Positions 40,670 through 45,968 of a stretch of DNA of 64,000 nucleotides are shown here, piece by piece (within the stretch, counting starts at the first letter, position 1; every line of letters starts with the position of its first letter). The notes below the pieces were generated by a model that was not told the DNA's origin, did no database searches, and worked only from the letters and a program-made list of their open reading frames with translations. This DNA is from Bacteroidetes bacterium HGW-Bacteroidetes-16 (GTDB taxonomy: Bacteria; Bacteroidota; Bacteroidia; Bacteroidales; F082). The position numbers and the translations under genes are program-made. The stretch covers positions 62,001 through 126,000 of the forward strand of contig PHDN01000002.1 of assembly GCA_002840975.1 (NCBI GenBank), read 5' to 3'.

Positions 40670-42244
40670 CTACCTGGTTACTATAATAAGCCGACTATCA
40701 GTGTTTGGTGCGTTGAATATTTTTAGCACATAGGTTCCGGGTATCACATCGGTTACATCCAGTTGAAATGATCCAACAGTAGAAAAATCAAGATGATAGG
40801 TCTTAATCAATTGACCTTGTGTACTGAATAGCTTAATTTCAGGAGTCGATTTTCCCAAAAAAGAGGTTTGTACAGTCAGTACATCAGAAACAGGATTGGG
40901 GTAGATTTTACAGTTTGTTGAACCAAAATCAAGTTCCGGGTTAATTCCACTTGCAACGTCTTCAATCACCGTGATGTGAATACCCGTGGCATTTGGATTT
41001 TCTCCCGAAAGGTCAACCCTGATCTTTTCGGCAGTAACACCTATGATTTCAGGATAAATCCAATAGGGTTTGGCTTTCATATTTACAAACTCAAACAATC
41101 CCTGGTCGTTGGCCTTACAATACATCAGCATATCATCGTTTTCATTCATTAAATAAATATTTGCCCCAACTGCAGGTTGTGCATCGGTTATTCCTTTGGG
41201 AAGATTATCGTAAACAATCGTTCCTTCTATTATGGAATTGCCGGGTAAATAATCGTCAGGTAACCTTAATCTGATGTCGTATTCCCAGGAAGTAGCATTG
41301 AGGTGAATGGGCTTTGCTTTCTGCCACAACAGTTCATCGCCATAATAGGTTGGAAGCAAATGACCCTGATATATTGAATTTAAGGAGAGTTCACTTTTTA
41401 CAGTATACTCTCCTGCCGGAATCTGGTAAAAATAATAATACCCAAGCGTGTCGATCCTGACAGTATCAAATGTGTAATAATGGTTGGCAGAATCTTTGGC
41501 ATAGAGATAAGCAATCCCTGCATCGATGGGCATAAGTTCCGAAAAAACATGACCCCCAAAGTGGTGATATTCCAATGGACTGATATAAATTAATTGGGTA
41601 ATGGTGTTTGAAAACTGCTGAGAATAAATATTCATGGTCACGGTCAAACTAACCAGAAATAAACCGGGCTCGCTATAAATATGTTCGGGGTTTTGCAACA
41701 ATGAGGTAGTTCCGTCACCAAAATCCCATTTCCAGGAACTGACATGCGGATTGGTTGTCTGATCGAAAAACCAATATCTAAATCGATCTCCTGTAGCCTT
41801 TTGTACATACTTAAACCTGGCTTGCAGCGGTTTAAACTGATAAGGTGCATCAATATAAAAATTGCTTAACAGGATATTCGAATAAATGTTTTCGCCAAAC
41901 CTGAAATGCAACGTGTTTTCATATGGTTTGTCGTTTTTATCGAGTGTCATAATGAGGTACGAACCACTCTTCTCTTGTGTTACAATCGTGTCAAAAAAAT
42001 AGCCATCATCATTTGTAAATACTTCTTTAAAGTAATAACCGCGGGTATTGTCACCCCCATTAGAGAGAATATTCACCCGATGATTTGCAATAGGACCACC
42101 ATAAAGCACATGTAATACCTGCCCTGAAATATAAACTTCATTTGGTTGGTTTCCTGCAATTAGAACAGGGAAATTTACCAAAAGTAAAAAGATCCCCAGC
42201 AGGTAGGTTTTCGTTTCTTTATATATTTTTAGAGAGCTGATCAT
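40670..42244 (-). CDS. Secreted PKD-domain protein with T9SS sorting domain
   Basis: 524 residues. After a signal peptide (about 1-30) comes a carboxypeptidase-regulatory-like domain (VYISGQVLHVLYGGPIANHRV), then a PKD domain with WKWDFGDGTTS-LLQNPEHIYSEPG (about 168-195), more beta domains, and a T9SS domain from KIYPNPVSDVL to RLIIVTR. It is probably a surface or released adhesin-like or scaffold protein. No catalytic motif seen. Confidence 0.82.
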   Translation of the reverse strand: MISSLKIYKETKTYLLGIFLLLVNFPVLIAGNQPNEVYISGQVLHVLYGGPIANHRVNILSNGGDNTRGYYFKEVFTNDDGYFFDTIVTQEKSGSYLIMTLDKNDKPYENTLHFRFGENIYSNILLSNFYIDAPYQFKPLQARFKYVQKATGDRFRYWFFDQTTNPHVSSWKWDFGDGTTSLLQNPEHIYSEPGLFLVSLTVTMNIYSQQFSNTITQLIYISPLEYHHFGGHVFSELMPIDAGIAYLYAKDSANHYYTFDTVRIDTLGYYYFYQIPAGEYTVKSELSLNSIYQGHLLPTYYGDELLWQKAKPIHLNATSWEYDIRLRLPDDYLPGNSIIEGTIVYDNLPKGITDAQPAVGANIYLMNENDDMLMYCKANDQGLFEFVNMKAKPYWIYPEIIGVTAEKIRVDLSGENPNATGIHITVIEDVASGINPELDFGSTNCKIYPNPVSDVLTVQTSFLGKSTPEIKLFSTQGQLIKTYHLDFSTVGSFQLDVTDVIPGTYVLKIFNAPNTDSRLIIVTR

Positions 42245-42263: not shown

Positions 42264-43616
42264 TTAGTTAAGTCTGATTATTGCCCCTATTCTTAAAGTA
42301 AAAGCGGAAAGGGGTTTATTATATCCTGGTTTATTATAAATTGAATGGATGTAGTATCGGTATCCTGGTTCGATGGCCATAGAGAACTGATTAGAGAGTT
42401 TATACTCGATACCGGCACCCAGCCAAAGTTGAAAATAGGTATTATTCCGCACCGGTAATTTATTTTGTAAGTTTATTATTTCGACATCTTTTTCCGCAGG
42501 ATGCGGTTTGTCAATAAACTTTCCAACTTGTATATTCATTGCAGGACCACCGTAAAGATACCAGTTAAAAGATGAATGATTGCCTTGGTGAAAATAGCCT
42601 AACAGAACAGGAACCTGAACATAGATATACCGGTTGGTAACTTCAGAGATTACCAAATGACGGATGCTGTCCCATACCTCAACAGTTTTGGTATAATAGG
42701 TAGGTACCACTTGTCCGTTAATAGAATCGAACGTTACATCATACACATCATGATAGGTACCCATTAAATCGTTGCTGATATAGTCAAGTTTTGCAAAACC
42801 CCGATCTTTGGCATAAGAAACGCCAAATCCAAAACGCAGAAAAAACGATTTGTTTAGATGAAAAATAGGCTCATAATTAATCGAATACGTATTTAAAAGG
42901 GTGACAGAATCAAAAGTGGTAGTTACAAATTCAGGTGAAACACCTACAAAAGAAGACCATTTACGCGGTTTTATTGATAAGGCATTTTTCACCGGACCAA
43001 GGTTTTTATCACCTCCTTTTTCTACATTTTGGGATTGATGAAACGAATAGAAAAATGGCTCATACATAGTTTGATTCACCTGATTTAATCCTCGAAAATT
43101 TAAGTATGAAATTCCCAAGAAAACCCGATTTTCCATATCATTGATTTGTTTTTCAGTATCATTTCCAATTGGATCCGGATTTTCAGGTTCCTTAAAAGCA
43201 GCAGGATTATTCCCAACAACGATTTCATTTTTCGATTGACTTGGTCCGACTGTTTTAGCAGGTTGGATTACTACTGGTTTTTGATTGATCGAAGGCTGAG
43301 ATTCTTTGGCTATGAGATCATTAGAAGTAGCTGGCTCATGTACTGGATTTTCCGGAGCTTCAATGGAGGTGTATTCTACCGAATCTGTTGATTTAAAAAT
43401 TGTTTTCTTTTCAGGAATTAAAAAAACCCAGCTAAGAAGAATTACAAGGAAAGCGGCAGCTAAAACGAATGTCCTCTTGATCCTATTCGCTTTTGCCCTT
43501 TGTTGGGTTTCCATACCAGACAGTACCCCTTGCCAAACACGCGGAGGTGGTGTTGGCTCAAAGGAATCAAACTTTTCCCTGATTATACGATCGATATGGT
43601 CGTTATGGTTTGTCAC
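42264..43616 (-). CDS. Anti-sigma-like membrane protein fused to an outer-membrane beta-barrel
   Basis: 450 residues in one frame. Residues 1-48 are cytosolic and acidic with PPPRVWQGVLSGME; residues 49-67 form one clear membrane helix (FVLAAAFLVILLSWVFLIP). A disordered Pro/Asn-rich linker follows to about 145. The last 250 residues have alternating beta strands ending in FTLRIGAIIRLN, typical of the 8-stranded PorT/OmpA-like barrels. The start overlaps the sigma-factor stop by four bases, so the two are coupled. An anti-sigma role is inferred from position and topology. A single-pass inner-membrane anchor plus barrel is hard to reconcile with one membrane. Confidence 0.65.
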   Translation of the reverse strand: MTNHNDHIDRIIREKFDSFEPTPPPRVWQGVLSGMETQQRAKANRIKRTFVLAAAFLVILLSWVFLIPEKKTIFKSTDSVEYTSIEAPENPVHEPATSNDLIAKESQPSINQKPVVIQPAKTVGPSQSKNEIVVGNNPAAFKEPENPDPIGNDTEKQINDMENRVFLGISYLNFRGLNQVNQTMYEPFFYSFHQSQNVEKGGDKNLGPVKNALSIKPRKWSSFVGVSPEFVTTTFDSVTLLNTYSINYEPIFHLNKSFFLRFGFGVSYAKDRGFAKLDYISNDLMGTYHDVYDVTFDSINGQVVPTYYTKTVEVWDSIRHLVISEVTNRYIYVQVPVLLGYFHQGNHSSFNWYLYGGPAMNIQVGKFIDKPHPAEKDVEIINLQNKLPVRNNTYFQLWLGAGIEYKLSNQFSMAIEPGYRYYIHSIYNKPGYNKPLSAFTLRIGAIIRLN

Positions 43617-44158
43617 AAATTTTCTTTCTTTTCAATTATTTTTAAACGTTTTTGCAGACTTGCCCTGGCTCTGGAAAGTTGCGATTTAGATGTGTTTTCC
43701 GAAATCCCGAGCATTTCCCCAATTTCCTTATGCGTGTATCCTTCTATGATATTCAGGTTAAAAACAGTTCTATAGCCATCCGGTAATTCATTAACCATAT
43801 TCAGTAATTCGCGCGTCGACATATTCTCAACAACCAAACTTCTGGTTTGATTTGTTTCTTTTACCTGATCTAAATCGGTTTTAACTCCCTGCTTAATTCT
43901 TTTATTATAGTAGTTAATAGCAGTATTTACGATTGTGCGTCGAACCCATCCTTCGAGCGATCCCTCTCCCCTGAAATCTTTTAAATGAACGAAAACCCTG
44001 ATAAAGCCATCTTGAAGAATATCCGCCGCATCATCTTTATCCAATGCAAAACGCAAACAAACCCCGTACATTTTTGGGGCAAGATGCAGATAAAAAGCCT
44101 CTTGTGCTTTTTTATCGTTCCTTAACAACTTAATTATAAAAGATTTATCAAATTCCAT
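43613..44158 (-). CDS. ECF-type RNA polymerase sigma factor
   Basis: 181 residues. Region 2 (YGVCLRFALDKDDAADILQDGFIRVFVHLKDFRGEGSLEGWVRRTIVNTAINYY) and region 4 (LPDGYRTVFNLNIIEGYTHKEIGEMLGISENTSKSQLSRARASLQKRL) are complete and region 3 is absent. It directs polymerase to envelope-stress or surface-related promoters. Its activity is probably held by the membrane protein encoded directly downstream. Confidence 0.93.
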   Translation of the reverse strand: MEFDKSFIIKLLRNDKKAQEAFYLHLAPKMYGVCLRFALDKDDAADILQDGFIRVFVHLKDFRGEGSLEGWVRRTIVNTAINYYNKRIKQGVKTDLDQVKETNQTRSLVVENMSTRELLNMVNELPDGYRTVFNLNIIEGYTHKEIGEMLGISENTSKSQLSRARASLQKRLKIIEKKENL

Positions 44159-44324
44159 GCGACCCTTTTCGTTTTTCTTTCCACAGAAAAACAGGGCAGC
44201 AAGTTAATAAAATCCATTCATAATTCGTATTGTTGACAAAAAGCCTTTGTGAATGGTTGCATAGAAGCCACTTTTACAATACCAAGAGGTCAATGTGCGA
44301 GAGGAATGAGGACAGGTTCGGGAA

Positions 44325-45968
44325 TCAGGAAACCACAAACTGCCTGTTGATAACATGTAGGAGTTCAGGTTTATTGATGGGTTTGAACAATAAATGATCA
44401 ACGTGTTCTTTTTCAATCACTTGCGTTTGTTCAAAATCCAATTCATTCCCAATTATTACGATGCGAATTTGCCTGTCTTGTTCTTTTATTCTATTGATTA
44501 ATTCCACCAAAGGAATTCCGGGAAGATCAACATCAAGAATAACCAGATCCACTTTAAACTCATTTAAATGACTGATCAATTTTTCCCCGGTTTTGGCCCA
44601 GTGCAGTTCGACCTTAGTTTTAGATAACATCATCTTCATCAGGTTAAAGTTGGCAAGTTCGTAATCAGCTATCAAAATGGTTTTGTCAGTCCATGAATAA
44701 TCAATACCCAACTGATTATAACTAGGCTCCATCGAATGGACTGAGATAATGGATTCGGGTAAATGAAGGTAAAAAGTGGAGCCTTTCTCAGGTGTCGAAT
44801 CCAGGGTAATTGATCCTTTCATCAGCTTGGCCATCCCGCTTGCAATGGCCAGCCCCAGCCCTGATCCGCCAACAACACGTGTGGGTGAATTATCTACTTG
44901 CCTGAAATGTTCAAATATTGACTCATGAAATTCAGGAGCTATTCCAATGCCCGGATCCTTTACATAAAAACAGATGCCGTTCATATTCTCAATAAAATAA
45001 CCAAGCTCAATCTGACCGGTACTTGTAAAAACAACCGCATTGTCAAGAAAGTTGATTAAAATTTGATGCACTTTACGAATATCTGCTGAAATGATAAGAT
45101 TCCTGTAATCAGTTTGTTCATTTAATATGATTTGTAAGTGCTGCTTGTTGTGTTGATGTTGAATTCTTTTGGATTCATTAAAAACATAATGTAAAATTTC
45201 GGATACTGCAAGGTTGTCGTTATGCACATCCATTTGCCTGGTCTCAATCTTAGAAATGCTAATGACATCTTCGATACGCTTTAGCAAAATATCACTACTG
45301 CCACGCACGATTTGTGTATACTCCTCACGGTCTTCGGATGGCAAATTTTCCATTAAAAGAAGCTCCAGAAAACCAAGAATATGATTTAACGGGGTGCGAA
45401 TTTCATGTGAAAGATTACTAAGAAATGCTGTTTTAAGCATATTCCCTTCTTCCGCCTTCTCTTTTGCTAAAATTAAATCCTTTTCAGCAAGCCTCCTTTG
45501 AGTAATATTTCCAATAATGATTAAATGGGCTGTGGCTTTTTGTTCACTGTTGGTAATAGAAATTCCCCTCACCCTGAAGTAGCTGTCCGAGGCATCTAAA
45601 TCAGAGATTCTGGTCTCGATATCAAACTGAACATGATCGTCGAGTAATCTGGAAATTTTTTCACTTAATCTGGTGTCGTCAAACTGCAAAAACCTGCTGA
45701 TATGTACATGCTGATTTTGGTTAGTCTGTGCATAATCAAATAACTTGCTAAATGTACTGTTAATAAACTGAATATAACCAAATGTGTCGAGGCTTAACAT
45801 GGCAAGAGGCACATGGTTAAGTACATCGGTATAGGTAACGTTTTTTGATGTCAGATCCGAAATCGATTTTTCATACTCACTAAGCTTGCTTTCCAATTCA
45901 CGAATACGTTCCGTCAACCGACTTATGTTGTCGTTTTCTTCAGATTCTAAGGCTTGCTTATTTCTCAT
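44325..45968 (-). CDS. Hybrid sensor histidine kinase with PAS and receiver domain
   Basis: 547 residues, no membrane segment. Coiled coil (10-45), PAS (about 48-155), dimerisation/phosphoacceptor FLSNLSHEIRTPLNHILGF with His near 186, ATPase boxes NFLDNA (N), KDPGIGIAPE (G1), GSGLGLAIASG (G2), then a C-terminal receiver with the phosphoacceptor Asp in VILDVDLPG and Lys in LFKPINKPEL. The receiver has Gly (IVIIGNE) where a Ser/Thr normally follows the fourth strand, which may weaken switching. Output is not evident. Divergent from nothing; gap of 166 bases to the sigma-factor gene. Confidence 0.92.
   Translation of the reverse strand: MRNKQALESEENDNISRLTERIRELESKLSEYEKSISDLTSKNVTYTDVLNHVPLAMLSLDTFGYIQFINSTFSKLFDYAQTNQNQHVHISRFLQFDDTRLSEKISRLLDDHVQFDIETRISDLDASDSYFRVRGISITNSEQKATAHLIIIGNITQRRLAEKDLILAKEKAEEGNMLKTAFLSNLSHEIRTPLNHILGFLELLLMENLPSEDREEYTQIVRGSSDILLKRIEDVISISKIETRQMDVHNDNLAVSEILHYVFNESKRIQHQHNKQHLQIILNEQTDYRNLIISADIRKVHQILINFLDNAVVFTSTGQIELGYFIENMNGICFYVKDPGIGIAPEFHESIFEHFRQVDNSPTRVVGGSGLGLAIASGMAKLMKGSITLDSTPEKGSTFYLHLPESIISVHSMEPSYNQLGIDYSWTDKTILIADYELANFNLMKMMLSKTKVELHWAKTGEKLISHLNEFKVDLVILDVDLPGIPLVELINRIKEQDRQIRIVIIGNELDFEQTQVIEKEHVDHLLFKPINKPELLHVINRQFVVS

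Follow-up and report, generated by a model that had tools for sequence, protein, structure and literature searches.

Within the window, by which we mean the whole 64,000-nucleotide stretch of Bacteroidetes bacterium HGW-Bacteroidetes-16 DNA that was analysed, a gene for an ECF sigma factor, a gene for a fusion between a putative anti-sigma segment and an outer-membrane barrel, and a gene for a predicted surface protein (DS) were found to follow one another, and together they are read as a Dma-type surface-signalling unit of an uncultured Bacteroidales bacterium, with a probability of about 0.82 for the full mechanism proposed here. In this mechanism, the first ~48 residues of the fusion would keep the sigma factor at the inner membrane, and from them one membrane helix and a disordered tether of ~150 residues would lead across the periplasm to an 8-stranded barrel in the outer membrane. 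The trigger would act at the outer membrane, through a ligand or partner bound to a hairpin of the barrel, a disturbance of the barrel or tension in the tether, perhaps with proteolysis as a next step, and the sigma factor so released would switch on its own operon from a single GCAACC-N16-TGTCA promoter. The main predicted output would be DS, a PKD/Ig-like protein exported by the T9SS, which would probably work with the barrel at the cell surface.

The sigma factor gene was located at 43613..44158 on the (-) strand, which carries every window feature described below, and encodes 181 aa in which both ECF regions 2 and 4 were matched by Sigma70_r2 (PF04542, 2e-13) and Sigma70_r4_2 (PF08281, 2e-17), with a further match to TIGR02937. 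The fusion gene (42264..43616) encodes 450 aa from a GTG start that lies inside the end of the sigma reading frame, giving a 4-nt overlap (GTGA) and bearing out the overlap described in the initial annotation, which was made from this sequence alone. Searches with the fusion protein returned no match among plasmid records and, at the level of sequence, none among solved structures. The gene immediately upstream of that for the sigma factor, on the same strand (44325-45968), encodes a PAS hybrid histidine kinase, and open reading frames of like size and place were also seen in some relatives (L051, L052 and L054).

The initial annotation had also described a short cytosolic piece, a single membrane helix and a Pro/Asn-rich linker, and had proposed structure prediction of the full protein as a check; each of these parts was recovered from the open reading frame, hydropathy, composition and an AlphaFold2 model built on 48 aligned sequences, which returned helices, a disordered linker and a confident barrel. 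Residues 1-48 (43473..43616) constitute the predicted cytosolic anti-sigma segment and, in the alignment, carry the conserved motif IDxLIxxKFxxFxPxPPxxVWxGI; conservation was 0.535 over residues 5-32, and residues 34-48 have a net charge of +4, an inside-positive pattern. Residues 49-67 (43416..43472) form the membrane helix, the sole segment with a hydropathy above 1.6 (2.74), and the model placed helices at 5-17 and 25-65. A single membrane segment in a similar place was present in every complete relative compared, with two cut-off copies being without one. The following 148 aa (residues 68-215; 42972..43415) were predicted to be a disordered periplasmic linker, with pLDDT below 50, the lowest conservation in the protein (0.211) and a composition of 9.5% Pro and 10.8% Asn. 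The N-terminus matched no named anti-sigma domain (NF052375 scored 14.5 bits, where 100 are required), and the domain scan of the fusion protein gave neither a FecR nor an STN match. It is proposed that residues 1-48 bind the sigma factor and that the fusion protein acts as a sensor, and an anti-sigma function shared with the Bacteroides Dma-type proteins would rest on position, topology and motif rather than on a domain match.

The model folds the C-terminal 235 residues (216-450; 42267..42971) into an outer-membrane barrel of 8 strands, which places it in the OmpA/OmpW size class, and the pLDDT there is for the most part close to 90 or higher. The barrel fold given in the initial annotation held, with a size somewhat below the 250 or so residues stated there. 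Fold comparison of residues 215-450 with VIA-align retrieved OmpW, OmpA, NspA and similar barrels at Z scores of 16-17, and the OMP_b-brl_2 domain was matched in 15 of 22 relatives at E<=0.1, with a best value of 6e-10. The window protein's own Pfam barrel match (OMP_b-brl) fell below the curated cut-off, though its model was clear, and this shortfall speaks for the alternative that the C-terminus forms a beta domain soluble in the periplasm, which would make the protein a conventional anti-sigma factor of the inner membrane whose large sensor is periplasmic. That alternative is considered very improbable, as it is opposed by the confidently predicted, closed barrel and its structural matches (Z ~17), by the domain matches among relatives, by a homologous barrel in a split operon (described below) that has a signal peptide-like N-terminus and an STN domain, and by the annotation of Bacteroides and Parabacteroides homologues as outer membrane beta-barrel or porin. 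The earlier interpretation of the protein as an inner-membrane anti-sigma module joined to an outer-membrane barrel is supported by its anatomy, its conservation and its positive-inside charge pattern.

Strands 3 and 4 of the modelled barrel are very long, and their tip forms a long hairpin, L2 (residues 276-331; 42624..42791), which is predicted from strand order to be extracellular. L2 was the best conserved region of the fusion protein (0.573, versus 0.39-0.42 for the other outer loops), and such conservation of outer loops suggests a constant partner, for which DS is the obvious candidate. The length of L2 was considered as a mark of DS-linked proteins and rejected, since L2 is equally long-type in Dma proteins of the Flavobacteriia type, which lack DS. 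A search with the hairpin motif matched only DS-linked proteins, and the Bacteroidaceae type has a short L2; it is only the sequence conservation of L2, and not its length, that goes with DS.

Full-length relatives of the fusion protein, with identities from 91% to 30% and without stop codons, were found in the same genus and family, and in a search of the phylum many other Bacteroidota had matches to the N-terminus and the barrel within one frame. The host, an uncultured member of the Bacteroidales, is close to the metagenome-assembled genome of Bacteroidetes bacterium GWF2_41_31, the fusion protein of which is 90% identical. When conserved fusions after ECF sigma genes were sought in related genomes, as had been proposed earlier, a sigma gene was found directly upstream in 98 of 98 loci with readable upstream DNA, mostly with an overlap; these loci came from genome searches and a scan of named genomes. 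The host genome itself, fragmented into 46 contigs, holds at least four ECF genes with such a partner (on C23, which carries the window, C35, C11 and C21). An accidental gene order, or a frameshift or assembly artefact joining two genes, found no support and is given practically no credence, since dozens of assemblies made independently share the same single frame, with identities as low as ~20%, and the linker keeps a constant length of 129-181 aa among relatives; a frameshift or assembly artefact is ruled out by this conservation.

Alignment of upstream regions revealed an ECF-type promoter ahead of the sigma gene, with a -35-like element, GCAACC, at 44255..44260 and a -10-like element, TGTCA, at 44234..44238, 75 nt before the sigma start codon. 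The -35-like element was present in all 25 upstream regions (as GGAACC in one), the spacer was exactly 16 nt in 25 of 25 relatives, and the distance to the start codon was 72-85 nt. In 12 of 14 relatives the strict pattern GCAACCWTT-N13-TGTCA, which would miss weaker matches, occurred once per genome, at the module's own sigma gene, and this suggests autoregulation together with a very small regulon. A relaxed pattern gave only a few dispersed matches in nine genomes, and a candidate second regulon site (G000:C35:48471) was dropped as it lies inside a 716-aa reading frame. A second conserved block, TTTATTAACTTGCTGCCC, was aligned between the promoter and the sigma start at 44195..44212, ~22 nt downstream of the -10-like element, and is perhaps the -7 box of a housekeeping promoter or a 5' UTR element. 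In a paralogous group (L022, L024, L025, L027 and L033), a promoter-like AAC-N17-GTC was seen upstream of the sigma gene, 20-24 nt before the start codon, a place different from that of the window promoter.

The third gene of the unit (40670..42244) encodes DS, a 524-aa protein with a signal peptide-like N-terminus, in which Pfam and NCBIfam models delineated PKD and CarboxypepD_reg domains and a T9SS type A tail. The sorting domain (residues 447-524; 40673..40906) scored 31.6 bits with TIGR04183 (cut-off 23) and 38.8 with PF18962 (cut-off 27), and the tail was present in all 53 relatives scanned; export to the surface by the T9SS is predicted. DS lies directly downstream of the fusion gene on the same strand in 67 of 75 Bacteroidales loci, with a median gap of 11 nt. 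Of the 34 loci within L021-L055, a set retrieved independently of the hairpin pattern, that had a downstream gene, 26 had DS next. About 141 T9SS-tail matches were counted in the whole of the host genome, on which basis the adjacency of DS to the fusion gene is not attributed to chance. Entire sigma-Dma-DS triads were also duplicated in tandem in several genomes (L079, L081, L082, L084, L087 and L092). As the loci are related to one another, these counts do not represent independent events. DS was absent from the Flavobacteriia-type Dma loci (0 of 24, with short flanks) and its place was taken by other genes at some Bacteroidales loci, and it is therefore not needed by all Dma proteins; the linkage could mean co-expression alone. 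The initial annotation, correct about the sigma and fusion pair, had overlooked both this third gene and the split version of the unit in the same genome.

Other genes were encountered after Dma-type pairs. At L135 (G000:C21) and L045, the protein encoded after the pair carries a T9SS tail of type B (CHU_C) rather than type A, and at L041 and L044, in other Bacteroidales, the next gene apparently codes for a protein with a lytic transglycosylase (SLT) domain, which hints at an output directed at the cell wall.

A search with the DS core retrieved, besides the Dma loci, proteins of ~1,000 residues located elsewhere, and 11 of the 12 such loci examined proved to be operons of an ECF sigma factor, a FecR anti-sigma factor, a barrel protein whose start resembles a signal peptide, and a T9SS protein. 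The window's own genome has one copy (L234, G000:C40:35000-42500), and further copies are at L235-L243 and L245. Ten split loci were confirmed to carry FecR and FecR_C domains, and an STN domain was found in 8 of 10 split-operon barrel proteins. Profile-profile comparison aligned the split barrel with the Dma barrel over its whole length, including L2 (98.9%, 227 columns), and the split T9SS protein with DS over 341 columns (99.93%), the common part being the last ~340 residues. A beta-helix was seen in the ~1,000-residue protein of the copy scanned, and the split operon resembles a version of FecI/FecR/FecA signalling built on a small barrel. In established cell-surface signalling systems, what an outer-membrane transducer senses is passed on through STN and FecR (PMC9249621, PMC11637429), and the split operon therefore independently supports signalling from barrel to sigma factor, with the fusion appearing to replace the FecR-STN contact.

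It is tentatively proposed, at less than even odds, that DS binds the conserved barrel hairpin, so that the sigma factor would report on its own surface product (or on T9SS export) and control almost nothing else; the same barrel and surface protein would then have been wired to an ECF sigma factor twice, by the covalent tether of Dma and by FecR-STN contact. A rival to the main reading, given somewhat less than an even chance, is that the barrel senses outer-membrane assembly or envelope stress, failed insertion freeing the sigma factor, and that DS is a co-transcribed output without barrel contact. The many Dma loci without DS agree with this proposal, as does the strict promoter pattern, which predicts DS as the main output, and there is a precedent in P. 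vulgatus, where a related sigma/anti-sigma pair is induced by a membrane-active toxin in a response that overlaps that to BamA inhibition (PMC9308784). Against it, the best conserved region is the predicted extracellular L2, which would be unexpected if insertion alone were monitored, and the relatives of the barrel and DS stay together where the anti-sigma link differs. For the signalling unit as a whole, the interest is that Dma proteins are recent and that a version with one predicted promoter per genome and a dedicated surface partner offers a small, testable circuit. The split operon ties an outer-membrane barrel and a T9SS product to sigma control and, set beside the fusion, lets two natural solutions to signalling across both membranes be compared.

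Proteins of this architecture have been described in gut Bacteroides. Genetic evidence indicates that Dma1 and Dma2 of B. thetaiotaomicron, whose chains extend between cytosol and outer membrane, keep their cognate ECF21 sigma factors in check (PMC13088901), and Dma1/Das1 and Dma2/Das2 resemble the window system in the adjacent ECF sigma gene, the cytosol-to-outer-membrane architecture and the restriction to Bacteroidota (PMC13088901). Profile-profile comparison of the window family with a set of Dma-like barrels including those of B. finegoldii and P. distasonis gave 99.7% over 163 columns, an alignment of the barrel only, with the N-terminal part unaligned. In Bacteroides finegoldii and Parabacteroides distasonis, the barrel gene likewise follows a sigma gene; a NigD-like gene lies beside the pair in B. 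finegoldii, where the sigma factor is 42% identical to that of the window, and an open reading frame resembling NigD was recognised by eye in P. massiliensis. The window system differs from the Bacteroidaceae/Tannerellaceae Dma proteins in a beta3-L2-beta4 region of 70 residues rather than 16-28, and from the Bacteroides systems in its private promoter and in a third gene for a T9SS-exported PKD protein instead of NigD.

The P. vulgatus pair M0N98_03760/61, of the ecfO-reo type, shares with the window system a large anti-sigma factor that ends in a barrel, is predicted to cross the periplasm and is encoded next to an upstream ECF sigma gene, and its inducing toxin targets the outer surface (PMC9308784, PMC13114119); unlike in the window system, its regulon includes nigD and LPS genes and no T9SS partner is described. 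In FecI/FecR/FecA, an outer-membrane protein also informs an inner-membrane anti-sigma factor about the surface (PMC9249621, PMC11637429), whereas the window system has no FecR, STN domain or TonB-dependent receptor and an 8-strand barrel that is covalently joined. In the PorA-PorXY-SigP system of Porphyromonas gingivalis, a surface protein with a T9SS domain similarly influences an ECF sigma factor, but does so through a two-component system; this pathway is limited to Porphyromonas and has no Dma protein (PMC7712824). The three-gene unit with its private promoter and split sister was not found described in the searchable literature, which did not extend to the 2024 PNAS account of Dma1. The architecture class is already known in gut Bacteroides, and it is the dedicated surface partner, the private promoter and the split sister that make the window system a variant of it.
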